A DNA stretch of 64,000 nucleotides. Origin: an uncultured Acidimicrobiales bacterium. Lineage in GTDB: Bacteria > Actinomycetota > Acidimicrobiia > Acidimicrobiales > SZUA-35. A program made the translations under genes and the position numbers. A model generated the notes under the pieces. The model had not been told where the DNA came from and did not search any database. It saw nothing but the letters and a program-made list of their open reading frames with translations. Numbering within the stretch: position 1 is the stretch's first letter; each line of letters opens with the position of its first letter. Where the stretch lies: positions 1-64,000 of the forward strand of contig CALKZY010000002.1 of NCBI GenBank assembly GCA_938002965.1, in the 5' to 3' direction. This document shows positions 39,923 to 52,769 of this stretch, in pieces.

Positions 39923-41284
39923 CTAGGCCATCGCGGCAATCAAGGCGTCGACATCCTCCGCTGTTGTGCGGGGGTTGACGAAGCAGAATCGGTAGACCGG
40001 CCTGCCATCGTGACGGGTGGGGGTTACGAATCCGGTTCCACTGGCGATCATGGCGTCAGTACATGCCTCGTAGTCGGATGCACCCCAGCCGATCCGTTCG
40101 AATACAACAACGCTGAGCGACGGCCCCCACAGCAGATTTAGATGGTCGGCGGCATGCACTCGGTCGGCTGCCACCTGGGCAATATCAAGCGTGGCCTGCA
40201 AGCTCTCGGCGTAGGCATCGGTTCCGTAGGCGGCCACCGAGAACCAGAACGGTAGGCCCCTGGCCCGGCGCGACAACTGAATGGCGTAGTCGCTGGGGTT
40301 CCATTCGCCGTAGCGATCCAGGAAGCTCAGGTAGTCTGCGTGCTGGGCGTGGACAACCTGGGCTTGAGCCGGGTCTCTCCATAACAACGCACAGGAGTCG
40401 AACGGGGCGAACAACCACTTGTGGGGATCGATGATGATCGAGTCGGCTAACTCGATGCCGTCGAACAGCGGCCGGGCTTTAGGAGCGGCCAGAGCGGCGC
40501 CCCCGTAGGCGGCATCGACGTGAAAGAAGACCTCATTGGCCCGGCACACCTCGCCGACCGATTGGAGATCGTCGATGACTCCCAGGTTTGTGCTGCCAGC
40601 CGTGGCGACCACCCCGGCTACTCGGTCGCCATAGGTGGCGAGTGCTTCAGCCACACCGGAGCCGGTCAAGCGACGATCGGAGCCCGTGGCTACCTCTACC
40701 ACCTCGGCATCCATGATCATGGCTGCCGACGGCACCGAGGAGTGGGCGGTATCGGAGATCAGGAACACCCAGTGATTAGGGCGGGGTCGGCCAAGACGCT
40801 CAAGACGAGCCCCTGCCGCTCCGCGTGCCCCAACCATGGCCGACAGGTTGCCGACGGTTCCCCCTTGGACGAAGACCCCTCCGGCATCCGGTCCGAGTCC
40901 AGCCAGATCGGACAGCCACCGGAGCGCCTGATTCTCGGCGTAGGTCGATCCGGCGGCTTCCAACCATGACCCGGCGTAGATCGACTCCGATCCGACGACT
41001 AGATCAAACAGGATCGAAGCTTCGGTCGGTGCAGCGGGAACGAATGCCAGGAAACGGGGATTATCGACCGAGAGACAGTTGGGGGCCAGGAGCTCGATGA
41101 ACACTCGAAGCGCTTCACTTCCGCCAAGACCGCCGGTTGTTATCGTCTCGCCAACCAGCTCGGCCAAGGCTTCGGGCGTTGCCGTGCCCCCGGTCGGGAT
41201 CGGTTCGAGCTCTGTGCGACGACGGGCGTAGTCAAGGATCTCCTCGGCCAGGCGACCGATCTCTTCGCTGTAGTCGTGCATCAT
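39923..41284 (-). CDS. PLP-dependent group II amino-acid decarboxylase
   Basis: A 453-residue enzyme of the aromatic-amino-acid/glutamate decarboxylase family (fold type I). DPHKWLFAPFD holds the PLP lysine, HVDAAYGG the ring-stacking and Asp contacts, and the N-terminal PRFLAFVPAAPTEASILFDL segment the substrate side. ATG 41284 or 41281 is the start (the open frame upstream overlaps the binding-protein gene). It lies 28 bases after the PotD-like gene in the same operon, so its substrate may be the amino acid sensed or bound by that protein. Which amino acid (aromatic, Glu, Asp, diaminobutyrate) is not clear from sequence. Confidence 0.85.
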   Translation of the reverse strand: MMHDYSEEIGRLAEEILDYARRRTELEPIPTGGTATPEALAELVGETITTGGLGGSEALRVFIELLAPNCLSVDNPRFLAFVPAAPTEASILFDLVVGSESIYAGSWLEAAGSTYAENQALRWLSDLAGLGPDAGGVFVQGGTVGNLSAMVGARGAAGARLERLGRPRPNHWVFLISDTAHSSVPSAAMIMDAEVVEVATGSDRRLTGSGVAEALATYGDRVAGVVATAGSTNLGVIDDLQSVGEVCRANEVFFHVDAAYGGAALAAPKARPLFDGIELADSIIIDPHKWLFAPFDSCALLWRDPAQAQVVHAQHADYLSFLDRYGEWNPSDYAIQLSRRARGLPFWFSVAAYGTDAYAESLQATLDIAQVAADRVHAADHLNLLWGPSLSVVVFERIGWGASDYEACTDAMIASGTGFVTPTRHDGRPVYRFCFVNPRTTAEDVDALIAAMA

Positions 41285-41312
41285 GGACGGTGATTCCGAT
41301 CTGGCGGGGAGT

Positions 41313-42506
41313 TCAACCGACCAGAGCGGCGAAGTCGGCGTCGAGCCGATCCTCAATGTCGGAGTCCAGTCCGCCCCAGGTGAACAAGCGGTTTCGGGTC
41401 GCCGGGTCGGGGAACAACACTTGGCTTTGAGCCAACTCCGCACTGGACCCTCCACGGGAAGCCAGAACGTCCTGAACCCCGAGCACGGGCGAGATGTATG
41501 AAACCCACTCGGTAATGTTTGCCGCGTTGTCAGGGTCGTAAACGAAGTTCATGAACCGGCCGGCGGCGGCAATGCTGGCTGAGCCCTTCGGGATGACCAT
41601 GGTGTCGAACCACTGGATGGCGCCCTCGTCGGGAATCACGAACTCGATGTCCGGCCGCTCTGCCTGAAGGAGGGCAACGTCGCCAGACCAAGCCATAGCC
41701 GCCGCTAGTTGGCCGTTGGCCAACATGTCGGCAAATTCTCCGAAGGTGAACGCCGCCACCTGACCTGATTGAGCAGCAGCGGTTATCCGGTCCAAACCGG
41801 CTTGGGCTGCGGCTTCGGTCGGGCGGGAGGGGTCGGCCCCATCGGCCAGCATTGCCAGGCCGACGGCTTCGCGCATTTCTCCGATGAAGCCGACCCGTCC
41901 CGCCAGCGACGAGTCGAAGAGTTGATTGATCGAACTGATCGGTCCGCCGGTGGCCGACGGGTCGTAGGCAATCCCAGTGATGCCAGCTTGCCACGGCATC
42001 TGGAACCGACAGCCGCGGTCCCATGCGTTGGTCAGGAAGGCCGGATCGATATTGGCATGGTTGGGAATCAATTCGATGGGTAGCGGCTCGGCCCAACCGT
42101 TCCTGATCATTTGAGCGGCCCGCCAGTTGGTGGGAACGACGATGTCATAGAGCGGGGTCGACGCGCCGACGGCATTGTTGAGAACAAGATCGAAGCCGCC
42201 GTAGTTGTCCTCGTATTCGGCCCTGTAGTCCACGGCCACACCTTCGGCCTGAAGCCGATCCAGGGTGCCTCCGGCGTAGTACAGGTTTCCACCGTCGTCG
42301 GCATCGACGTACTCCGGCCAGTTCAGCATTACCAATCGGTCCGAGTCGCCGTAGTCGGTGATCCGAGAGGTGTTTGGCGTAGCGCATCCGGACAATCCGA
42401 TGCCGGCCAGACCACCGGCGGCCAAGCCGCCGATAAAGCGACGTCGGGTCATCGGGGCCACTGCTCCCGGCTGAATTGGGGCCTGCGGAAGGGAGTTAGA
42501 CGTCAT
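41313..42506 (-). CDS. PotD-type substrate-binding lipoprotein (orphan)
   Basis: A 397-residue extracytoplasmic binding protein. The N-terminus has a twin-arginine-like TRRRFIGG (20-27) and a lipobox LSGC with Cys41. The body matches spermidine/putrescine-type binding proteins (LNWPEYVDAD; YDIVVPTNW; GWAEPLP; WQAGITGIAYDP; WSGDVALLQAERPDIEFVIPDEGA; FMNFVYDP). No permease or ATPase gene is present, which is unusual for a transporter part. Its start overlaps the stop of the GlnX-like receptor gene (ATGA), so it is more likely the ligand sensor of that receptor. Ligand prediction is polyamine or amino acid. Confidence 0.88.
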   Translation of the reverse strand: MTSNSLPQAPIQPGAVAPMTRRRFIGGLAAGGLAGIGLSGCATPNTSRITDYGDSDRLVMLNWPEYVDADDGGNLYYAGGTLDRLQAEGVAVDYRAEYEDNYGGFDLVLNNAVGASTPLYDIVVPTNWRAAQMIRNGWAEPLPIELIPNHANIDPAFLTNAWDRGCRFQMPWQAGITGIAYDPSATGGPISSINQLFDSSLAGRVGFIGEMREAVGLAMLADGADPSRPTEAAAQAGLDRITAAAQSGQVAAFTFGEFADMLANGQLAAAMAWSGDVALLQAERPDIEFVIPDEGAIQWFDTMVIPKGSASIAAAGRFMNFVYDPDNAANITEWVSYISPVLGVQDVLASRGGSSAELAQSQVLFPDPATRNRLFTWGGLDSDIEDRLDADFAALVG

Positions 42507-43909
42507 CGGTAATCCTGTCGACGTTGTTGAACCCCGGCAACCGACAACAATGCCGCCACCACGCTGAGGGCCAGCACAATCCAGGGCACGAAGTCCACCA
42601 CTTGTCGGGCCGAAGCGGCACCATCGAGGAACTGGGTTCGGTTGTCGGACAGCGAGCTCTCGAGGCCGGTGTTGAATCCGTTGAAGTCGGTCAGCGCCTC
42701 ACCTCGCAACAGCGCCAGTGCACCTTCGGCGTCGCCGCTACGGGCACTGCTACTAATTGTTGATGCGGTTTGCCTGTATCGCGACCAGCGAAGTCCTAGG
42801 GTTTCGGCCGCCGCCTGTTCGCGGGCCGAATCCGCTCGGTTGGCTACATCGGCTACCCCGGCGTCGACCCGTTCAACCAACGCCACTAGTTCGGGTTGGC
42901 GCTGGGTCGCCTGGCTCTCGTCCAAGAGCAGCAGGCTCAACGATGATTGGAGGGTGAAGGCATCGCTCTGCAGTTCACCGGTTGTGGTCACCGAATCGTA
43001 GCCACCGGCCAGTGCGTCGGTCAGAACGACGTTGCGAACGTAGAGCGACCAGGCCAGTAGACCGATGATGGCTACTACCGCTAGCGACGCCGCGAGGAGG
43101 TACCGGTTGAGGATACGGCGGGTGCGGTAGGCGAGGCCGCGCTGCATCCACAACATGACGACTAGAGCCAGTACGGCCGCCGCCAACGCTCCGGTCAAGA
43201 ATACGGTGCCTTCGGCTATCTCTTCGTCGATCTGGTCCTGACCTATGCCGGTCAGGCTTCTGACGGCCGGTTCGACTTCGGCCTCAACCGAAGACAGGCT
43301 GTCGATCAGCAGGGCGTCGGCCTGGGGGAGCGCGTTGAGGTTGGCCAAACGGGCAGCCTCGATACCGGCCCGGTAGTCGGCTACCGAGGCACTAATGTCT
43401 TCCAAACCGTCAAGCGACGCTCCGGTGGCAGCGGTAGACACTGTTTCTGCCAGTGCCCGGTCGACGGCGGCTTCGTAGAGGCCGCGGCTGGCACGATCTT
43501 CGACGCCTTCGGCCCGGATGGAAAGATGGGCCGAGGTGGCGGCTGCGTTGGCTTCGGCCACGTTGGCCAGCAGATCCTGCAAGTCGACCAGGGCCGGTGC
43601 CGCGCTGTCGGCCACTGACCGGGCCGACTGTTGAGCCAAAAAAGTAAGCGCCACACAGGCGGCGGCCATCAAGCCCAGAACCAAGGGAAGTTGCCACAAC
43701 CAGCGGTCGAGGAACCTGCGTGTACCGGTGGAGCGGACGGGCGACGTCGCGGCAGTCGGTGGTGGCGGCGTTGACCGTCGTGGACGAGAGGCCGCGCTTG
43801 ATCCGGAAGTGTTCCGGGGTGGGGGAGGTTGGGTTGCCGACGCTGTCACCAGTTGCGATCCTAGTCGCCATGGGCAACGATGGCTGCGCAACATGACCGG
43901 TACTACCAT
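42503..43909 (-). CDS. GlnX-like four-TM sensor membrane protein
   Basis: A 468-residue membrane protein with a Pro/Ser-rich cytoplasmic N-terminus, TM1 about 67-90, a helical outside domain (about 91-235), TM2 (about 237-257), TM3 (about 268-290), a second helical outside domain, and TM4 (about 438-460). The two outside domains are long, Ala/Ser-rich helices resembling four-helix-bundle sensor domains. The order receptor - binding lipoprotein next to a PknG gene matches mycobacterial glnX-glnH-pknG. The likely role is passing ligand state from the binding protein to the kinase. ATG 43909 has no ribosome-binding site; GTG 43849, after a GGATCG, is an alternative. Confidence 0.7.
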   Translation of the reverse strand: MVVPVMLRSHRCPWRLGSQLVTASATQPPPPRNTSGSSAASRPRRSTPPPPTAATSPVRSTGTRRFLDRWLWQLPLVLGLMAAACVALTFLAQQSARSVADSAAPALVDLQDLLANVAEANAAATSAHLSIRAEGVEDRASRGLYEAAVDRALAETVSTAATGASLDGLEDISASVADYRAGIEAARLANLNALPQADALLIDSLSSVEAEVEPAVRSLTGIGQDQIDEEIAEGTVFLTGALAAAVLALVVMLWMQRGLAYRTRRILNRYLLAASLAVVAIIGLLAWSLYVRNVVLTDALAGGYDSVTTTGELQSDAFTLQSSLSLLLLDESQATQRQPELVALVERVDAGVADVANRADSAREQAAAETLGLRWSRYRQTASTISSSARSGDAEGALALLRGEALTDFNGFNTGLESSLSDNRTQFLDGAASARQVVDFVPWIVLALSVVAALLSVAGVQQRRQDYR

Positions 43910-43932
43910 TACGAGTGAGCCCCGATTGAGCT

Positions 43933-45120
43933 ATGACCGTTAACCGGCCGAACCCACAGAATCAGCGTTCGTTGTCGGAGTCGCTCAGAGGATTTCGGAT
44001 TGCATCCGGACATTTGGCCGATGGCTTGAACGAGGTTGAACAGCTGCCCTCGCATTTGATGTTGGCCGATGTAGCCCCCGGCTCGAAGACGGCGGTCGAC
44101 TATCAGGCTTTGGGCGTGACTGCTGTTGATCTGCGCCGAGGACTTCAGGCGATTGGAGCGCACCTTGATCTGGTTGAGGCTCCGTCTTCGGAACGTGACG
44201 CGCTAGCGATGCTCAGCACGCCATTTGATCTTGGGCTGCCCGTCGATCGCCCAAAGCCGGTATCGCTGGCTGCAGCGATACCGCTTCTACGGACGAAGCT
44301 TGACGCTCTTGTTGATTTCGTCGCCCGAATCGACCGCATCTGGCTTCAAAATCTGAGTCGTCTCGACGCCGCCAACAAAACCTTGAACCGGCTCGACACC
44401 GAAGTTGCCGGTCTTGGCATCGTTGAACCGCTGCTCGGTCGGACGCGCCAGCGGGTAGAGGGCCTGAAAGAACTGTTGATGACCGATCCGCTGGCGGCTG
44501 AATCCGACACCGGTGCCGAGATCGACCGTCTTGTCGCCGAGGCGGCCAGACACGTTTCGTCAGCTCGATCCGGGCGCGACAACCTTGATTCCGATCTGGC
44601 CGAAACCGAAGTCCTGTTGGCTTCGCTGCGGGTCCTGCGCAATCGGGCACAGGCGGCCTTGGATGAGTCGCAGGCGAAGATCGTTGATCCACCGAATCTA
44701 GTGGTGGTACCCACCGCGTTGGTCTTGGACGGTTCGGGAGGTTTGGGTGAGCAACTCGATGAGGTGAATGAAGCCATGGGTCGGCCGCACGCCTCCAGTC
44801 AGCCCGATTGGGCGGTTCAGCGCAGTCGCCTTGACCGATGGCTGCAAACAGCTAGGAATCTTGAGTCCCAGTTGGCCGAAGCCGTGGATCGCAACAGTGT
44901 CGGTCTCGACCGCCGCCACGAGCTACGTGGTGCCTTCGGTGCGTTCGAAGCCAAGATGGCGGCGTTGGGTCGAGCGGAGGATCCACTACTCATGGACATT
45001 GTCGACGAAGTGTGGAACGAGCTGTACACCGCTCCAACCGATCTCGTCCGGGCAGCTGGCGGTCTGGCTCGATTAGCCGAATCGCTGCGCTCGACCACTG
45101 AATCGGACCGACAACCGTGA
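43933..45120 (+). CDS. Alpha-helical coiled-coil protein of the PknG cluster
   Basis: A 395-residue protein, almost all helical, rich in Leu, Ala, Arg and Glu, with coiled-coil-like stretches (for example about 120-160 and 190-245). No TM, signal or known catalytic motif is visible. It starts 23 bases from the divergent receptor gene and ends 70 bases before the PknG-like kinase, so it is the first gene of the kinase operon. It may be a scaffold for kinase, phosphatase and FHA protein or link them to the receptor; that is inference from position. Confidence 0.7.
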   Translation: MTVNRPNPQNQRSLSESLRGFRIASGHLADGLNEVEQLPSHLMLADVAPGSKTAVDYQALGVTAVDLRRGLQAIGAHLDLVEAPSSERDALAMLSTPFDLGLPVDRPKPVSLAAAIPLLRTKLDALVDFVARIDRIWLQNLSRLDAANKTLNRLDTEVAGLGIVEPLLGRTRQRVEGLKELLMTDPLAAESDTGAEIDRLVAEAARHVSSARSGRDNLDSDLAETEVLLASLRVLRNRAQAALDESQAKIVDPPNLVVVPTALVLDGSGGLGEQLDEVNEAMGRPHASSQPDWAVQRSRLDRWLQTARNLESQLAEAVDRNSVGLDRRHELRGAFGAFEAKMAALGRAEDPLLMDIVDEVWNELYTAPTDLVRAAGGLARLAESLRSTTESDRQP

Positions 45121-45190
45121 CAACGGCTAGTGGTACAGGTTGGGGCAAGACGGTGCCAGGCCGTCGGCGTTGGCGACTAGTGTTGGAGCG

Positions 45191-47746
45191 ATGAGCGTCA
45201 TGGCCCACGCCAGCGGTACACCGAGGTGCACGCAACCGGCGTGCGGTGGTTCGATTGATACCAACGGCTACTGCGATACCTGCGGTATGCGGGCGTCGGC
45301 GAACAAGACCGCTCCAGCATCATCGCCGGTTGGGTCGTCGGTTGCTGGCGCCCCGCCAACCAATCCGGCTTCGCCTCCTCCTGGCCCGAGACAAGCCAAG
45401 GCTCCCGGCGCCATTTGTGGCCGGGACGGCTGCGCCGGAACGATAAGCAGTGACGGCTATTGCGACACCTGTGGGTTGTCCGGACAGTCGACCGGTGGAG
45501 CTCCGGTGGCCGATGGGTCGACTGCTTCGCCAACCGCTCAAGGTACCGGCTCGATGCCATCCATCGCTGTGCCTGTGCCCCCAGACGTTTCGACCTCCCG
45601 ACAGACCTCGGGCTCGCCGAGCGGGCGGACGAGGGATGCCTCATCGACTCGAATCGGTGGAACCCGGTCGGGCCTTGGTTTGGGAATGGTGACGGTTCCT
45701 CCGACCGAGGTCGGCGATCCGGCAATGGCCGTCATGTCGGAAGCGAAGGTTCAGCAGGTGCTCGGCGTTGTCCCTGAGGACGAGCGAAACTGCAGCTCGT
45801 GCGGCAAGCCGGTGGGCCGGACGGCCGGAGGCGCTGAGGGCCGCATCGAGGGTTTTTGTGGCAACTGTCGGGAGCCTTTCAACTTCGTCACCAACCGACC
45901 TGTGCTCGTTCCGGAGGAGTTGGTGGCCGGGCAGTATGAGATTCTCGGGCCTTTGGCCCACGGCGGTATGGGCTGGATTTACCTTGGGAAGGACAATGCG
46001 GTCTCGGATCGCTGGGTGGTCCTCAAGGGGCTGTTGAATCAAGACGACCCGGACGCCATCGCCGCTGCGGTGGCCGAACGTCGTTTCTTGGCCCAGATCG
46101 AACACGCCAACATCGTTAACATCTACAACTTCGTCTCCCATCGCGGTGCCGGCTACATCGTCATGGAGATGGTGGGTGGTGAGTCGCTTAACTCAAAGCT
46201 GAAGAACCGTCGCACCGCCAACGGTGGTGTTCCCGATCCGCTGGACGTTGCCGACGCCGTGTCCTACATGCTCGGGATTCTCCCGGCACTTGGTTATCTG
46301 CACGACCTCGGCCTGGTCTACAACGATCTAAAACCGGCCAACGTCATGGCGGTGGGCGACGACGTAAAGCTCATTGATGTCGGTGCGGTAATGCGGGCCG
46401 ATGACGTTCAGGCCGCCATCTTTGGAACCGAGGGATTCCAGGCCCCCGAGGTGGCTACGCACGGTCCGTCGGCCCAGTCCGACTTGTACACGGTGGGCCG
46501 GACCTTAGCGGTGCTGATCATCAAATTCGTGTTCCATACCGGCACGTACCAATACAGCCTCCCGGATCAAGTCAACGAGCCGCTTTTCCGGCAGTGGGAA
46601 TCGCTCTACCGGTTCTTGTTGAAGGCAACAGCCCACCACCCCGATGACCGGTTCCAGACCGCGGGTGAGATGACCGAACAACTGAGCGGGGTGCTACGGG
46701 AAATCGTGGCCCTCACCGACGGCCAGCCACGATCCGCAGTGTCTCACCACTTCGAAACGGACCGTACCGCTCAGCTGTTGTTGGACAACGTGGACTCGGC
46801 GGCCGCCTCCGGTCCCTACTGGCGAATACTGCCGCCGGCTCGAATCAACGAGGACAGCCCCGATGCCCGGATCGTGCTGGACCTGATCGATCTTCGCCCG
46901 GCGGAGAACGCCGAGAAGATTCGAATTGGCATCGAGACACTAGGTAGCCAGGCCACCCACGAACTGACGCTCCGATACGCGTGGGAGATCATCCTCCTCA
47001 CCGGCGACGCCAGCGGGGAAACAACCGCTTACCCCGAACCAAGCCAGCTGCTGTCGAGGGTGGCCGCCGATGACCCCTGGGACTGGCGGGTGTCGTGGTA
47101 CGAAGGGGTGTTGCTGTTGACGCGTGCCCGCTTCGGCGAAGCAGCGGAGAAATTCAACAGAGTCTGGACCGAGGTCCCGGGCGAGACGGCCCCAAAGGTG
47201 GCGGTGGCCTTGGCGGCCGAGTTGGCCGGTCAGCTTGATCGGGCTGAAGAACTGTACGATCTGGTCTCGCGGTCCGATTCGAGTTTTGTTTCCGCCGCTT
47301 TCGGATTGGCCCGCTGCCGCTTGGCCCGGGCCAAAGCCGACACCGCGGTCGAAGCTCTCAATCGGGTTCCCGCCACCTCCGCCGCCTACTACGACGCCCA
47401 GGTGGCGGCGGCACGAACGTTGGCCGGTGGGGGCTTCAGCACCCGGGTGCCCGCCATGGTCGAGTTGAAAGCTGCGTCCGACATCGTCGAGCGCCTACAG
47501 CTCGATGCCACCGAGCGGGCCTCGATTTCTGCTGAGATCTTTGAACAGGCGCTGACTAAAGTCGGTGCTGGCGGTTCCAGCCACGGTGGGGTCGACAGGC
47601 TTCTTGGTCGACCGCTCACCGTTGAACAGCTTCAGATGGGACTGCACGACGTCTACCGGGAGCAGGCCCGATTGGCCGATTCCGCCCCAGAGCGAGAAGA
47701 ACTCATCGACAAGGCGAATCAGGTCCGGCCATGGAGCTGGTTCTAA
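45191..47746 (+). CDS. PknG-like serine/threonine protein kinase
   Basis: An 851-residue kinase. Two N-terminal zinc ribbons (Cys13, 18, 28, 31 and Cys76, 81, 91, 94) precede a Pro/Ser-rich linker. The rubredoxin-like site follows (Cys201, 204, 223, 226), then the kinase domain at about 248-510: Gly loop AHGGMG, Lys279, Glu297, catalytic NDLKPAN with Asp379, and DVG with Asp396. The C-terminal about 300 residues are TPR-like helices. Lack of the HRD Arg and the rubredoxin site are PknG hallmarks; the two extra ribbons are additional. The start at ATG 45191 is uncertain: ATG 45200 has better spacing to GGAG, and the frame is open to TTG 45140. Confidence 0.92.
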   Translation: MSVMAHASGTPRCTQPACGGSIDTNGYCDTCGMRASANKTAPASSPVGSSVAGAPPTNPASPPPGPRQAKAPGAICGRDGCAGTISSDGYCDTCGLSGQSTGGAPVADGSTASPTAQGTGSMPSIAVPVPPDVSTSRQTSGSPSGRTRDASSTRIGGTRSGLGLGMVTVPPTEVGDPAMAVMSEAKVQQVLGVVPEDERNCSSCGKPVGRTAGGAEGRIEGFCGNCREPFNFVTNRPVLVPEELVAGQYEILGPLAHGGMGWIYLGKDNAVSDRWVVLKGLLNQDDPDAIAAAVAERRFLAQIEHANIVNIYNFVSHRGAGYIVMEMVGGESLNSKLKNRRTANGGVPDPLDVADAVSYMLGILPALGYLHDLGLVYNDLKPANVMAVGDDVKLIDVGAVMRADDVQAAIFGTEGFQAPEVATHGPSAQSDLYTVGRTLAVLIIKFVFHTGTYQYSLPDQVNEPLFRQWESLYRFLLKATAHHPDDRFQTAGEMTEQLSGVLREIVALTDGQPRSAVSHHFETDRTAQLLLDNVDSAAASGPYWRILPPARINEDSPDARIVLDLIDLRPAENAEKIRIGIETLGSQATHELTLRYAWEIILLTGDASGETTAYPEPSQLLSRVAADDPWDWRVSWYEGVLLLTRARFGEAAEKFNRVWTEVPGETAPKVAVALAAELAGQLDRAEELYDLVSRSDSSFVSAAFGLARCRLARAKADTAVEALNRVPATSAAYYDAQVAAARTLAGGGFSTRVPAMVELKAASDIVERLQLDATERASISAEIFEQALTKVGAGGSSHGGVDRLLGRPLTVEQLQMGLHDVYREQARLADSAPEREELIDKANQVRPWSWF

Positions 47747-48948
47747 TGCCCGACGATCTACAGCCGGACGACCAACAGCGAGACAGCGAGTCGGCTGATC
47801 AACCGACAGGTGTTGACGTCTGCCCGGCCTGCGCCGAGCCGGTCACCGCCGGGGCCAATTGGTGTGAGGCATGTGGGCATGACCTGGTCAACAACCAGAC
47901 TTTCATCGAGCCTGCGCCGATGCCAGGGCTAGCCGCCGAGCCCGAGACACACCAGCCGCCAGAATCGCGAACTGTACCATCTGCTCCCTGCCAGGCCTGT
48001 GGCGAAACCGACATCGACGCCGACGGCTACTGCTTGAGCTGCGGGTACCGCCAGCCTTCTGAACGCAACCATATAAGCGAGGTTGTCGGGTCGGTAGCGG
48101 CCGCCACCGATCGCGGCAGCGTTCGCCACCGAAACGAAGATGCGTATGCCATCGCAGTGGCCGATGCCGGCCAAGCAATACTGGTTGTGTGCGACGGAGT
48201 GTCATCGACGCCGGGTTCGGAGGAGGCGTCGACATCGGCGGCCAAAGCCACCTGCCGAACGATCGTCGACGGCCTGAATCAACACGACGGCGATCATCTC
48301 GGTGAGTCGGAAATGGACAAGCTCCTTCGTGCCGCGGTTGCCGATGGGCAACAAGCAGCCGCTGAAGCCGCAGCCACCGTCGGAGCGGCTTTTGGCGGCG
48401 CCTCACTGCCGCTGGCCGATCCGCCCTCCACCACATTGGTCTGCGCCGTCGTATCCGTTGACGAGCGCACCGAGGGCGACCCGGCGGTTGATCTAGACGT
48501 GGCCTGGGTAGGCGACAGTCGCTGTTACTGGGTAACGGCGGACGAAGAACGACTATTGACCTCAGATCACGAGGAACTGGGTGCGCTGAGCCGGTGGCTC
48601 GGTGCCGACTCCATGCAGCCTGAACCCGACATTGTTCGACATCGCTACGCTCTGGGCCCTGATGCCAGACCAGGCTTGGTGTTGGTCTGCTCTGATGGTC
48701 TTTGGCGTTACCTTTCGCCGTCCACGGGCATGCCGGCCAACGAGCTGGTTGCAGCCATCACCCACAATCTCACCGGGTCAACTCACTCCGACGAATCGCT
48801 CGACGAAAACGAAGCAGGTGGTGAGACGGCTCGAAGCATCGTCGAGAGCCTCATCGAGTTCGCCAATAATCGAGGCGGGCACGACAACATCACCGCCGCC
48901 ATCACATCCCCAGTGGTTTCCCTCCAGCCCTCTCAGGAGAGTCAATGA
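47746..48948 (+). CDS. PP2C-family phosphatase with two zinc ribbons
   Basis: A 400-residue protein Ser/Thr phosphatase. Two ribbons come first (Cys26, 29, 40, 43 and Cys82, 85, 96, 99), then the PP2C domain at about 115-395: RGSVRHRNEDAY (metal Asp132), VVCDGVSS (Asp150), WVGDSRCYW, and GGHDNITAA. ATG 47746 shares its A with the kinase stop (TAATG); an ATG at 47731 inside the kinase is also in frame. It is expected to reverse PknG phosphorylation, probably on the FHA or VWA proteins encoded after it. Confidence 0.92.
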   Translation: MPDDLQPDDQQRDSESADQPTGVDVCPACAEPVTAGANWCEACGHDLVNNQTFIEPAPMPGLAAEPETHQPPESRTVPSAPCQACGETDIDADGYCLSCGYRQPSERNHISEVVGSVAAATDRGSVRHRNEDAYAIAVADAGQAILVVCDGVSSTPGSEEASTSAAKATCRTIVDGLNQHDGDHLGESEMDKLLRAAVADGQQAAAEAAATVGAAFGGASLPLADPPSTTLVCAVVSVDERTEGDPAVDLDVAWVGDSRCYWVTADEERLLTSDHEELGALSRWLGADSMQPEPDIVRHRYALGPDARPGLVLVCSDGLWRYLSPSTGMPANELVAAITHNLTGSTHSDESLDENEAGGETARSIVESLIEFANNRGGHDNITAAITSPVVSLQPSQESQ

Positions 48949-50243
48949 CCGGTTTCAGCGCTCAAGTATTCCAGAACGAGTACCTCCCGGCGGGAGCCGA
49001 AGTAGTCGACGCCGTCGTCACCGTTCGATCCTCAGGGGAGGGAACCGGGCCGCCGGCGCGAGCCGAGTCGGTTGAGGTACTCATTATCGACACCTCCGGA
49101 TCGATGAGCGAAGAAGGCGGCCGGAAGATGCGGGGTGCGATTACCGCCACTCAGGCCGCCATCGACACCATCGACGATGGTGTCCACTTTGCTGTTGTAG
49201 GGGGAACAACCGGCGCCTACATGATTTACCCGCGGGAAGGTCTGGCCACAGCCAGCGACCAGACTCGAAGAAAAGCCAAGCAGATGGTCGGTCGGGTCCG
49301 ACCTAAGGGTGGCACGGCCATGGGCGCATGGCTGATGGCCGCCGCATATCTGGTGGCCAAACGCCCCGATGCCATAGCTCACGCCCTGTTGCTAACCGAC
49401 GGCAAGAACCAGAACCAGGCTCCGGGCGAGCTCGAGGCCAACATTGCCGAGTGCGTCGGCCGCTTTCAGTGCGACGCCCGCGGTTTGGGCGTCGACTGGG
49501 ATATCGATGAGTTGCGTAAAGTCGCCTCAGGACTGCTTGGCACCGTCGATATCATTCCCCGGCCTGAAGACATGCACGCCGAATTCACCAAACTCACTCG
49601 ACAGGCAATGGGTAAACAAGTGGGCCGGGTGGCTCTTCGCATGTGGACGCCGAAAGGTTCTACCTGCGAGTTCGTCAAGCAGGTGTCTCCGTCGCTGGAA
49701 GATCTCACGCCCAAGGGAACTCCAGTCAATGCTTTGACTACCGAATATCCCCTCGGGGCATGGGCCGGTGAGGAAGAACGAGACTATCACCTGCGTATCC
49801 GCGTGCCGGTCGGAGCGGTCGGCGATGAAAGGTTGGCGGCCCGGGTGATGCTGTCGGTAGACGGCACCGATCAGCCTGCGGCCCTGGTTCGGGCGATCTG
49901 GACAGGAGACGAGAGGCTGTCAACGAAGATCAATCGGGCAGTGGCCCACTACACCGGTCAGGCCGAACTGGCCGATGCGATCGCCGACGGCCTTGCTGCA
50001 CGGGAGTCCGGAGATGGGGCTACGGCCACCGTGAGGTTGGGGCGTGCGGTGCAGCTGGCCCACGAAAGCGGAAACGAGGATACGGTTCGACTCCTTCAAA
50101 AAGTGGTGGAAGTAGACGATCCGGCCACAGGCACCGTTCGGTTGAGGCGCGAAGTAGAAAAGAGCGATGAGATGGCTCTCGATGTGAGGTCTACTCGAAC
50201 GGTTCGGGTCAATCGAGGTGGACCGAAAGGTGATAACTCATGA
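48945..50243 (+). CDS. Von Willebrand factor A (MIDAS) protein of the kinase cluster
   Basis: A 432-residue VWA protein. The metal-ion site is DTSGS (Asp49, Ser51, Ser53) with KGGTAMG (Thr) and LLTDGKNQN (Asp) completing MIDAS. It is followed by a beta-rich middle region and a helical C-terminus (AIADGLAARESGDGATATVRLGRAVQL). No signal or TM, so it is cytoplasmic. TerY-like VWA proteins are found with PP2C and kinases in tellurite-resistance phosphorylation triads, and the same set is seen here. It overlaps both neighbours by ATGA. Confidence 0.88.
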   Translation: MTGFSAQVFQNEYLPAGAEVVDAVVTVRSSGEGTGPPARAESVEVLIIDTSGSMSEEGGRKMRGAITATQAAIDTIDDGVHFAVVGGTTGAYMIYPREGLATASDQTRRKAKQMVGRVRPKGGTAMGAWLMAAAYLVAKRPDAIAHALLLTDGKNQNQAPGELEANIAECVGRFQCDARGLGVDWDIDELRKVASGLLGTVDIIPRPEDMHAEFTKLTRQAMGKQVGRVALRMWTPKGSTCEFVKQVSPSLEDLTPKGTPVNALTTEYPLGAWAGEEERDYHLRIRVPVGAVGDERLAARVMLSVDGTDQPAALVRAIWTGDERLSTKINRAVAHYTGQAELADAIADGLAARESGDGATATVRLGRAVQLAHESGNEDTVRLLQKVVEVDDPATGTVRLRREVEKSDEMALDVRSTRTVRVNRGGPKGDNS

Positions 50244-50896
50244 CCAGTAGTGATGACGGTGGGAAGGTTTGCGAAAACTGTCAATCGGTCTGCGGGATCG
50301 ACGATATCTTTTGTGAACGCTGCGGCTATGACTTCATTACCGGCTCAATGCCGGGCGCCGCCACGTCGGAGTCCGTCGGCGTCGCTGGCGCCACCGGGCC
50401 GGTGCCCACACCATCGCCCGCTTCAACGCCATCACCGGCGACCCAAAATTCTGTGCCCAGCGTGTTAGATACCGAGCCTCAACAAGTCGTGGGGAGCGTC
50501 GGTCGGGTGCTTATCGACATCGGTTTCGATCGCGAGTACTTCGCTTCGGTTGTAACCGAAGGCGAAGTGTCTGTACCGACGCAGATGCCGACCGACCAGC
50601 GGTTGGAGTTGCACGGCGGTGAACTCCATGTTGGGCGAACCAGCGCCAGCCGTGGTGTCCATCCCACGATTGACGTGGAAGCCTTGACTGGCGATCCCGC
50701 TGTGTCTTCCCAGCACGCAGTGTTGCGTGTCGCCGATGATGGTTCAGCCACGATCATCGATGTCGGGTCGACCAATGGAACCTTCGTGGGTTCCTACGCC
50801 GGTGATCCAATCACCCAGGGTGTGTCGGTCGACCTGCCGCCCGGCTTGCCGGTCTACCTGGGCGCCTGGACACGGTTAGTCGTAGTTAGCGGCTAG
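50240..50896 (+). CDS. FHA-domain protein with N-terminal zinc ribbon
   Basis: A 218-residue protein. Cys11, 14, 25 and 28 make a zinc ribbon. A Pro/Ser/Thr-rich linker (about 40-80) and a conserved helix/strand region follow, then an FHA domain at about 120-215 with GR (132-133), SSQH (156-159) and GSTNGT (176-181), the phosphothreonine-binding residues. In mycobacteria the FHA protein GarA is the PknG substrate that controls glutamate metabolism; this could play that part, although the zinc ribbon is an added feature. Last gene of the coupled kinase operon. Confidence 0.88.
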   Translation: MTSSDDGGKVCENCQSVCGIDDIFCERCGYDFITGSMPGAATSESVGVAGATGPVPTPSPASTPSPATQNSVPSVLDTEPQQVVGSVGRVLIDIGFDREYFASVVTEGEVSVPTQMPTDQRLELHGGELHVGRTSASRGVHPTIDVEALTGDPAVSSQHAVLRVADDGSATIIDVGSTNGTFVGSYAGDPITQGVSVDLPPGLPVYLGAWTRLVVVSG

Positions 50897-51767: not shown

Positions 51768-52769
51768 GTGCTACAACGGTCCTTTCTGACACTTGCCGCT
51801 GAGGCGGGATCAGGCAACTTCGTTGATCTTGGTGATATCGGCGCCGGTCCGTGGATCATCCTTCTTGGCTTGGTTCTTTTGCTTCTAGGCATCGATCTAT
51901 ACCGACACCGTGATGCCCACGAACCTACGTTCCGAGAGGCACTGTTCGAGTCACTCTTTTGGGTGGCTTGCGGTCTCGGTTTTTCCGTCTACGTTCTGGT
52001 CTCCTTCGGTGACCTTGCCTTCGGCGAGTATCTCAGCGGTTATCTCATCGAGAAGGCGCTCAGCGTTGACAACGTCTTCGTTTGGTCGATGTTGTTCAGC
52101 TCGCTGGCCATTCCGCTGAGATATCAGCACCGAGTGCTTTTCTACGGCATCTTCGGCGCGCTGGTTATGAGGGCCATCTTCATTTGGCTCGGGGCGGCGC
52201 TGCTGGCTCAGTTCGAGTTTCTGCTGCTGGTGTTCGGAGCTTTCTTGATCTACACCGGTTTGGGGGTCATGAGGCACAAAGAGGGGGAGGGCGATATGTC
52301 CTCCAACCGGGCGCTGCAGTTTGTGCGTCGCTTTGTGCCGGTAACCGACGACTTCCACGGCCAGCAGTTCTTCACTCGGATCGACGGTCGACGGGTGGCA
52401 ACTCCGCTGCTGGCGGCGCTGGTAGTGGTCGAAGCCACCGACGTGGTGTTCGCCGTGGATTCGGTGCCGGCGATTCTGGCCATCTCAACCGAGGAGTTCC
52501 TGATCTTCTCGTCGAATGCTTTCGCCATTCTCGGTCTCAGAGCGATGTACTTCTTGTTGGCTGGAGCCAAGGAACGGTTCCATTATTTGAACCACGGTCT
52601 CGGGGCAATCTTGGTGTTCGTTGGTCTGAAGATGTTGGCCACCGGCTTGTTCGAGTACCACCTGAATGTGTGGATCTCGTTGACCATCATTGCTGGAATT
52701 CTGGCAGCCGCCATTGTGTTCTCGGAGCGGAAGAACCGCGAACTTGAACGCCAACGGGTGGCATCATAG
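51768..52769 (+). CDS. TerC-family integral membrane protein
   Basis: A 333-residue TerC/Alx-type protein with about nine TM helices. Conserved TerC blocks include SVDNVFVWSMLF, EATDVVFAVDSVPAI (acidic residues inside helices that may bind metal), FIVFSSNAFAILGLRAMYF-like sequence near 245, and KMLA. TerC proteins take part in tellurite resistance and manganese homeostasis or metalation of exported proteins. GTG start with AGAGG 9 bases upstream. Only one small gene separates it from the PknG-PP2C-VWA-FHA operon. Confidence 0.92.
   Translation: MLQRSFLTLAAEAGSGNFVDLGDIGAGPWIILLGLVLLLLGIDLYRHRDAHEPTFREALFESLFWVACGLGFSVYVLVSFGDLAFGEYLSGYLIEKALSVDNVFVWSMLFSSLAIPLRYQHRVLFYGIFGALVMRAIFIWLGAALLAQFEFLLLVFGAFLIYTGLGVMRHKEGEGDMSSNRALQFVRRFVPVTDDFHGQQFFTRIDGRRVATPLLAALVVVEATDVVFAVDSVPAILAISTEEFLIFSSNAFAILGLRAMYFLLAGAKERFHYLNHGLGAILVFVGLKMLATGLFEYHLNVWISLTIIAGILAAAIVFSERKNRELERQRVAS

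Follow-up and report, generated by a model that had tools for sequence, protein, structure and literature searches.

A GlnX–PknG signalling locus with an exchanged, PotD-like sensor and a long kinase operon in an Acidimicrobiales genome

What switches bacterial Ser/Thr kinases on is named as an open question in the PknG literature itself (PMC6069109; papers are cited here for the passages drawn on). The question is raised by a locus in a 64,000-nucleotide stretch of DNA from an uncultured Acidimicrobiales bacterium (contig CALKZY010000002.1, positions 1 to 64,000; hereafter the window), where a PknG-type kinase gene is followed by PP2C, VWA and FHA genes, and faces the genes for a GlnX-family receptor, a PotD-like binding lipoprotein and a decarboxylase. 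What would such a receptor sense, and to which partners would its kinase pass the signal on? Here we show that the locus is of the known GlnH–GlnX–PknG type, in a novel form whose sensor appears to have been exchanged. One receptor–kinase pair is thus found with two unrelated types of binding protein, or with none adjacent to it, and the operon known so well from mycobacteria represents a short form, beside which a longer one exists. The eight genes occupy positions 39923-50896, three of them on the minus strand facing five on the plus strand, as an earlier note made from the letters alone had described:

39923..41281 (-): pyridoxal phosphate (PLP)-dependent group II amino-acid decarboxylase (PF00282); the listed open reading frame extends to 41455, the likely start is ATG 41281
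41313..42506 (-): PotD-like solute-binding protein (SBP8), with a Tat-type (twin-arginine translocation) signal, RR 21-22, and lipobox Cys41
42503..43909 (-): GlnX-family receptor, four transmembrane helices and two periplasmic four-helix bundles, start at ATG 43909 or GTG 43849; R265/N268 lie in its cytoplasmic loop, and its C-terminal tail is of (E/D)YR type
43910..43932 (no strand): intergenic stretch that separates the divergent halves; a receptor start at GTG 43849 would lengthen it to 83 bp
43933..45120 (+): all-helical protein (CC) with no known fold match; invariant P368
45140..47746 (+): PknG-type Ser/Thr kinase with N-terminal zinc ribbons, rubredoxin-like domain, kinase domain and TPR
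47731..48948 (+): PP2C phosphatase with an N-terminal double zinc ribbon
48945..50243 (+): VWA protein; it has the metal-site motif DxSGSM, and its C-terminal Thr tail is conserved
50190..50207 (+): the VWA tail STRTVR (S416-R421), a candidate phospho-acceptor
50240..50896 (+): FHA protein with a zinc ribbon; a different protein from the GarA-like one

The decarboxylase matches PF00282 with E 5e-54, and the lipoprotein matches PF13416 SBP_bac_8 (E 2e-22) and the NCBIfam PotD model (E 5e-23; 81 bits, under its cut-off of 582). In the kinase, matches to PknG_TPR (PF16918, 7e-56, above its cut-off), kinase (PF00069, 2e-27) and PknG rubredoxin (PF16919, 3e-15) bear out the kinship with PknG that had been proposed. 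The PP2C protein combines PP2C_2 (E 2e-13) with its double zinc ribbon, the VWA protein carries VWA_3 (E 8e-12) and VWA_3_C (E 4e-26), the FHA protein has an FHA domain (E 3.5e-10), and the helical protein matches no family in Pfam or NCBIfam. The overlaps between genes that had been described hold in part: ATGA can be read at the receptor/lipoprotein, PP2C/VWA and VWA/FHA junctions, but the decarboxylase gene does not overlap that of the lipoprotein, since residue conservation in the decarboxylase starts only at M59, which makes 41281 its likely start. Alternative starts are possible for PknG (ATG 45191 or 45200) and for the receptor, whose residues 1-60 are of low confidence in the structure model; with the latter start at GTG 43849, the gap between the halves would grow from 23 to 83 bp. 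A Met column conserved at residue 21 of the receptor was set aside as an argument for a start there, since length had guided the choice of the other starts. A scan of this divergent region for sigma-70 promoters found no sigma-70-like site. The nearest relatives of the kinase come from Acidimicrobiales metagenome genomes (L063, 86% identity), which by itself would very probably place the window in this order.

Exchange of the binding protein beside GlnX

PknG loci were collected with flanks of up to 10 kb from the best 80 of 266 candidate stretches, which represent 79 distinct loci and are biased to close relatives. Further PknG genomes were drawn from the relatives, the class and the phylum; with duplicates of the G-loci removed, 92 loci were kept, and all loci were annotated with profiles built from the window proteins and their relatives. 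The loci that we call mycobacterial-type are those of family f92 of the phylum draw, whose identity is presumed; five of them were kept in the PknG tree and three in the GlnX tree.

The receptor matches the ‘GlnX family’ model NF058618 over residues 77-468 (E 1.3e-48), and hydropathy agrees with the four transmembrane segments that had been read from its sequence. Its structure model (predicted local distance difference test score, pLDDT, 90.5) is all helical, with two periplasmic four-helix bundles. Ranked by probability, Foldseek gave bundle-sized matches to the ligand-binding domains of the chemoreceptors MCP2201 and Vc1313 (probability 1.0, E about 0.5-1); ranked by E-value, TTYH membrane proteins came top (E 0.01, template modelling score about 0.2). 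R265 and R463 are invariant in 65 GlnX rows, and the C-terminal tail motif is present in 25 of 25 further loci, 14 of which are mycobacterial-type. Mean column conservation reaches 0.58 in the cytoplasmic loop and 0.61 at the C-terminus, against 0.32-0.41 elsewhere, a pattern that fits a receptor whose kinase side would be fixed and whose outside would be exchangeable.

In many lineages GlnX adjoins an SBP_bac_3-type protein (SBP3; checked with Pfam in four loci, called by its own profile elsewhere), and in Propionibacteriaceae and Micropruina (L099-L122) and some other loci GlnX and the kinase operon occur with no binding protein beside the receptor. The Acidimicrobiales clade carries the divergent trio of decarboxylase, PotD-like Tat lipoprotein and GlnX. 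Loci with SBP8 are confined to one PknG clade of 35 rows (support 100 in a Shimodaira–Hasegawa-like approximate likelihood ratio test, SH-aLRT, on a quick tree), and the SBP8-linked GlnX sequences form one 27-row clade (support 100) that also contains L077, whose contig ends ahead of any SBP gene. Furthermore, in a midpoint-rooted tree the 26 rows of PotD-like sensor proteins separate as a single clade (100/100) from 19 class relatives, the latter being the best-scoring loci from 119 matching genomes. R21, R22 and C41 of the lipoprotein are kept in 23 of 23 rows. An approximately unbiased test of the SBP8-linked GlnX sequences as one clade rejected this grouping as posed (p 9e-5); we give this result no weight, because the tested group omitted L077, which lies inside the clade without a readable SBP. 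As two unrelated types of binding protein go with the same receptor–kinase pair, the parts of the system that set ligand specificity would be separable from those that contact the kinase.

In the neighbourhoods of six SBP relatives, the SBP gene stands with ATP-binding cassette (ABC) ATPase or permease-like genes in all six, these calls resting on Pfam in L224 and, for the ATPase portion of its frame, in L221, and made by eye for the other four. No transporter gene was found among the scanned window genes beside the lipoprotein. Because the sensor proteins form one clade and their relatives neighbour ABC genes, a single recruitment from transporter stock probably gave rise to the sensor, and the exchange itself is well supported by the sequence comparisons. 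Pfam also identifies an aldehyde dehydrogenase, class III aminotransferase or alanine dehydrogenase gene near the SBP gene in L223, L224 and L226.

The earlier note had allowed that the two divergent halves might rarely be neighbours in other genomes. This is not so in the Acidimicrobiales PknG clade: of its 35 rows, the window included, 32 can be tested (the other three begin inside PknG), and in 25 of these GlnX stands divergently beside the operon, at a distance of 1.3-2.4 kb in three of them. The seven clade genomes without GlnX beside the kinase operon all hold it elsewhere. In three of them the whole trio lies off the operon, either about 10 kb upstream on the same contig (L066/L235) or on another contig (L082/L236 and L070/L237), and in four clade genomes the distant GlnX pairs with SBP3 (L238 and L240 in one genome, L239, L241, and L242, where SBP3 is cut by the contig end). 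In the GlnX tree these SBP3-linked receptors group together (support 98), separately from the SBP8 clade. No replacement sensor was found among eight upstream genes beside five GlnX-less operons (L034, L067, L069, L082, L088), which encode enzymes or an unrelated membrane protein.

Some minor observations concern the same genes. In the GlnX tree, several receptors without an adjacent binding protein are among those with the longest branches. Genes for an AAA ATPase of CbbX/SpoVK/EccA-like type are often found 5’ of glnX (L107, L115, L134 and other actinomycetes) and were not seen beside the Acidimicrobiales trio. Finally, L221:3611-6007 (+) encodes a PotA-like ATPase with TOBE domain fused in frame to a PotD-like binding protein; such a union of a cytoplasmic with an exported protein is unusual and may be an assembly error.

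The long kinase operon

For the operon counts a PknG profile score of at least 600 was required, and L179-L183 (second copies, one fragment) and short fragments were left out. In 72 of 74 non-mycobacterial loci that have at least 5 kb of downstream sequence (one cyanobacterial), PknG is followed on its own strand by the PP2C, VWA and FHA genes, and the whole set falls within 4.5 kb of PknG in 69 of the 74. The two exceptions are L104, where the contig ends too early to include an FHA gene, and L120, in which a cyanobacterial kinase stands alone. By the rule used, the helical gene stands directly 5’ of PknG in 88 of 93 loci; among the five misses, L064, L085 and L130 are start-site artefacts in which the gene is present, L171 is sub-threshold and L120 is without the gene. 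All five genes also occur together in the cyanobacterial locus L128. The mycobacterial-type loci, on the other hand, have the PP2C/VWA/FHA set in none of 14 and the helical gene in none of 16; 14 of these 16 show GlnX–SBP3–PknG, the remaining two PknG alone. Because none of the four genes accompanies GlnX–SBP3–PknG there, the helical protein would be associated with PP2C, VWA and FHA, and not with the GlnX–PknG contact as such.

A gene order that recurs across Actinomycetota and in one cyanobacterium is far beyond chance. This conservation, which the earlier note had proposed to check, changes the picture of a ‘signalling island’ that it had drawn: the genes are there, but the island is not a local one, as its right half is a conserved operon. 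The distribution of PknG is patchy, with matches in 11 of 12 genomes of the window’s genus and 7 of 49 other relatives, and with matches above cut-off in 10 of 296 genomes in the class draw. Of the 396 genomes in the phylum draw, 26 reach at least 190 bits for PknG; 14 of these are of the short type and 12 of the long form, and the latter comprise ten genomes of one Streptomyces-like genus, one of f102 and the window.

Zinc-ribbon cysteines are found in PknG in 84 of 92 rows (besides the rubredoxin set), in PP2C in 80-85 of 87 and in FHA in 77 of 77. The AlphaFold model of the helical protein has a mean pLDDT of 93.4; Foldseek gave no PDB match to its fold (best E 0.99), and profile comparison returned weak coiled-coil matches only. 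A part in anti-phage defence was considered and rejected: the PADLOC kinase matches (among the best 25 of 30) all fall in or around the kinase domain, one weak match concerns PP2C, and there is no PADLOC match for the helical, VWA, FHA or GlnX proteins.

In the PknG quick tree, the cyanobacterial rows L120 and L128 are sister to the Acidimicrobiales clade (SH-aLRT 99), which suggests interphylum transfer. In L066 (12.5-17.9 kb), L099, L104 and L116, about 5 kb or more separates PP2C from VWA in the otherwise tight operon. L180, L181 and L182 are second, distant PknG-like loci in Streptomyces-like genomes, and their VWA protein ends in a zinc-ribbon-like stretch.

Ligand, enzyme and output

The pocket of the lipoprotein can be compared with that of E. 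coli PotD, whose spermidine contacts include W34, E36, Y37, D168, E171, W229, W255 and D257 (PMC11414716). The aligned residues are, in the same order, W63, E65, Y66, E210, E213, W273, W299 and D301, a match by chemical class at 8 of 8 positions, in line with the PotD-like protein that had been read here. Seven of these residues are kept in 23 of 23 rows, and E65 is Asp or Glu in 22 of 23. The 19 class relatives differ, as position 65 is acidic in only three of them and position 213 is Asp in all, so that the sensor clade appears to have a pocket of its own, nearer to PotD at the proximal end. Read from these aligned residues, an amine as the ligand is moderately supported. PMC6069109 predicts that all PknG-linked binding proteins bind amino acids; a PotD-like sensor linked to PknG contradicts this prediction, as the cited passage words it.

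The best PDB matches of the decarboxylase are aromatic-amino-acid, DOPA (3,4-dihydroxyphenylalanine) and desferrioxamine-pathway decarboxylases (157-148 bits), and with NCBIfam it scores 167 bits for diaminobutyrate decarboxylase and 27 for glutamate decarboxylase, both far under the cut-offs. HK at 345-346, where we take the PLP lysine to be, is kept in 22 of 22 rows. The gene lies within 160 bp of SBP8, or overlaps it, in 21 of 22 loci, the remaining one being cut by the contig end, and it is found in none of 57 loci with SBP3. The trio retains decarboxylase, PotD-like protein and GlnX in all three genomes where it lies off the operon. Because the enzyme stays with the PotD-like protein and GlnX away from the kinase, it belongs to the sensor side, and the suggested part as an output is not supported.

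On the output side, the VWA protein carries the C-terminal tail ST(K/R)TxR in 87 of 94 loci. Four of the seven misses are cut or fragmentary (L080, L116, L124, L183), L168 reads STQTVR, and L180 and L181 are distant paralogues; the paralogue L182, with STKTVR ahead of a longer C-terminus, was counted as a match. S416, T417, T419 and R421 are each kept in 77 of 81 rows, and this tail is the leading candidate for a PknG phospho-site that is read by the FHA protein. Among 13-mers of the operon proteins ranked by resemblance to the GarA peptide, in which we take the Thr of ETTS to be the PknG site, the VWA tail comes first in 38 of 90 loci and is in the top five in 75 of 90; a stretch of PknG is the best GarA-like 13-mer in 32 loci. 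As the tails are homologous, this resemblance is suggestive only.

The FHA protein of the operon had been cast in the part of GarA. It was rejected as such, since it scores 24 bits against an OdhI/GarA cut-off of 200, and a separate GarA-like gene exists in the window’s genome (L196:2062-2538, minus strand; 145 bits, also below 200). The latter lies beside gcvH and a bifunctional-nuclease (BFN-domain) gene, and its product has an N-terminal zinc ribbon and no ETTS motif. The gcvH–garA order is presumably mycobacterial as well.

A proposed circuit and its alternatives

On balance, we favour a GlnX–PknG system with an exchanged sensory front end, in which a PotD-like lipoprotein would sense an amine and the output would run through the VWA tail and the FHA protein. 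The lipoprotein, exported by the Tat pathway, would capture its amine ligand (most likely a polyamine or diamine) on the outer side of the membrane and would dock on the two four-helix bundles of GlnX. The receptor would relay this state through its four transmembrane helices to the cytoplasmic loop and (E/D)YR-type tail, and there engage PknG, a step modelled on what has been proposed for GlnH-GlnX-PknG. PknG, which shares zinc ribbons with the PP2C and FHA proteins, would then phosphorylate its operon partners, with the VWA tail as acceptor and the FHA protein as its reader, while the helical protein may serve as scaffold and PP2C as reset. The co-encoded decarboxylase would produce or consume the sensed amine, thereby tuning the signal. 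The sequences themselves show the gene anatomy, its conserved order, the confinement of the exchange to a single clade, the residues of the pocket and the pairing of the decarboxylase with SBP8. We infer the ligand, the direction of signalling, the phosphorylation targets, the scaffold and reset roles, and the role and substrate of the decarboxylase, and it is only by inference that the phosphorylation scheme can be drawn. A more specific version, which we offer tentatively and would not be surprised to see fail, is that of a polyamine-gated PknG: a sensor from polyamine-transporter stock, together with its own amine enzyme, would have replaced the amino-acid sensor, and the VWA Thr tail read by the zinc-ribbon FHA protein would be a branch that the mycobacterial-type operon lacks.

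Several findings weigh against the favoured circuit. With 166 bits, the receptor remains under the curated GlnX cut-off of 250 for NF058618 (of three other GlnX candidates scanned with this model, two are above 250 and one is at 224), it reaches 43 bits with the equivalog NF041460 against a cut-off of 780, and with Foldseek no fold matched the whole GlnX chain at E 0.001. The kinship with GlnX claimed in the earlier note therefore stands by profile and by the model with its two four-helix bundles, but falls short of the curated score. PotD has further distal contacts, S83, Y85 and Q327 (PMC8666671), of which S83 and Y85 align with Thr126 and Trp128 of the lipoprotein, and this distal end is thus not identical to that of PotD. 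Three SBP_bac_8 proteins of P. aeruginosa, predicted to bind spermidine or putrescine, prefer GABA (gamma-aminobutyric acid) or 5-aminovalerate, and for their neighbouring sensor kinases the cited part of the same study found no activation (PMC11113362), so that the ligand call may be wrong, and adjacency of genes does not reliably prove a sensor. In the VWA tail, the residue aligned to the ETTS Thr of GarA is Val in 28 of 28 tails of the window’s clade, and the acceptor would thus have to be T417 or T419. Moreover, some genomes of the same clade hold a GlnX–SBP3 pair in place of the trio, which makes the amine sensor replaceable.

The same circuit could also serve GABA or another omega-amino acid, made by a decarboxylase of glutamate or similar type, which would place it near glutamate metabolism as in mycobacteria. 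The P. aeruginosa preferences point that way, glutamate decarboxylases are also among the matches of the PLP enzyme (3vp6, for example, at 86 bits), and the dehydrogenase and aminotransferase genes near some transporter relatives would fit the breakdown of either polyamines or GABA. However, the pocket is acidic at both ends, with E65, E210, E213 and D301 conserved as given above, which suits a diamine over a carboxylate, and the decarboxylase scores higher for diaminobutyrate than for glutamate decarboxylase, albeit far below both cut-offs; we consider such a ligand rather unlikely, if worth keeping in view. A different alternative concerns the output. FHA proteins such as GarA and OdhI are known PknG substrates (PMC8546545), and the operon FHA protein might itself be phosphorylated in the manner of GarA, with the VWA tail only a structural or metal-site element. 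This we regard as unlikely, given that the only Thr residues among FHA columns of at least 85% identity, T181 and T211, lie inside the FHA fold, that no Ser or Thr reaches this identity in the N-terminal segment (where poor alignment could hide a site), and that the four tail residues of VWA are so widely kept.

Could the trio be a separate receptor for amine homeostasis, placed by chance next to the kinase operon, with a GlnX that does not signal to PknG? Its location off the operon in three genomes would agree with this, as would the divergent halves of the window, which are not co-transcribed. Yet the cytoplasmic loop and C-terminus, the parts of GlnX expected to face PknG, are the best conserved, and GlnX either adjoins the operon or is held elsewhere in every testable genome of the clade. 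The window’s genome (91% complete) furthermore has one PknG_TPR match and one GlnX match. We judge this separation quite improbable.

How does the favoured circuit relate to known systems? The amino-acid-sensing GlnH-GlnX-PknG system of Mycobacterium and Corynebacterium (PMC6069109, PMC9769921, PMC8546545) shares with it the PknG kinase with TPR and, as in mycobacteria, a rubredoxin-like domain, as well as a GlnX-family receptor with four-helix-bundle periplasmic domains and an adjoining lipoprotein binding protein. It differs in that GlnH is an SBP_bac_3 protein, whereas the window has a PotD-like SBP_bac_8 protein, adds the PLP decarboxylase, places the two halves divergently, and has a five-gene output operon (helical, PknG, PP2C, VWA, FHA) instead of PknG alone. 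In PMC6069109 the three-gene operon is described as widely conserved (STRING), and a phosphatase is not mentioned in the part of its text drawn on. In the open-licence literature, subscription papers lying outside the search, we found no description of the long PknG operon or of a PotD-like PknG sensor; nor is an operon of the window’s type described in the accessible part of a 2005 domain survey that treats PknG with VWA, FHA and phosphatase. For this widespread long form, the VWA tail offers a testable substrate. In NspS-MbaA of Vibrio cholerae (PMC8079147) and Sinorhizobium (PMC9993111), a periplasmic polyamine-binding protein likewise addresses a membrane receptor and not a transporter, but MbaA makes or breaks cyclic di-GMP, whereas the receptor here is GlnX and the output would be a Ser/Thr kinase.

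Actinobacterial neighbourhoods of zinc-ribbon kinase, PP2C and vWA genes have been described around GAP1-N2 GTPases (PMC7159879, where the cited part does not name PknG); the window’s kinase differs in having the PknG TPR, and no GTPase is present among the genes read, for which no GAP1-N2 model was run.

Triads of the TerY-P type consist of vWA, PP2C and kinase genes, and the window resembles them in its adjacent kinase, PP2C and VWA genes and in a TerC-family gene 3’ of the operon. The TerY-like addition that had been suggested for this locus is nevertheless not borne out: in the lineages covered outside the mycobacterial type, PknG operons regularly include PP2C, VWA and FHA, and no TerY model matched in Pfam or NCBIfam, where the presence of such a model was unchecked and no direct protein comparison was made. 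The window differs from such triads in its PknG-type kinase, in a VWA protein that matches VWA_3 and VWA_3_C, and in a TerC neighbour that occurs in only part of the clade. This TerC-family (PF03741) membrane protein is encoded at 51768-52769 (+) of the window and may reflect chance synteny or a real partner; of the 21 further clade loci that leave more than 4.5 kb of room, seven have such a gene within 3.6 kb of FHA, six of them on the same strand.

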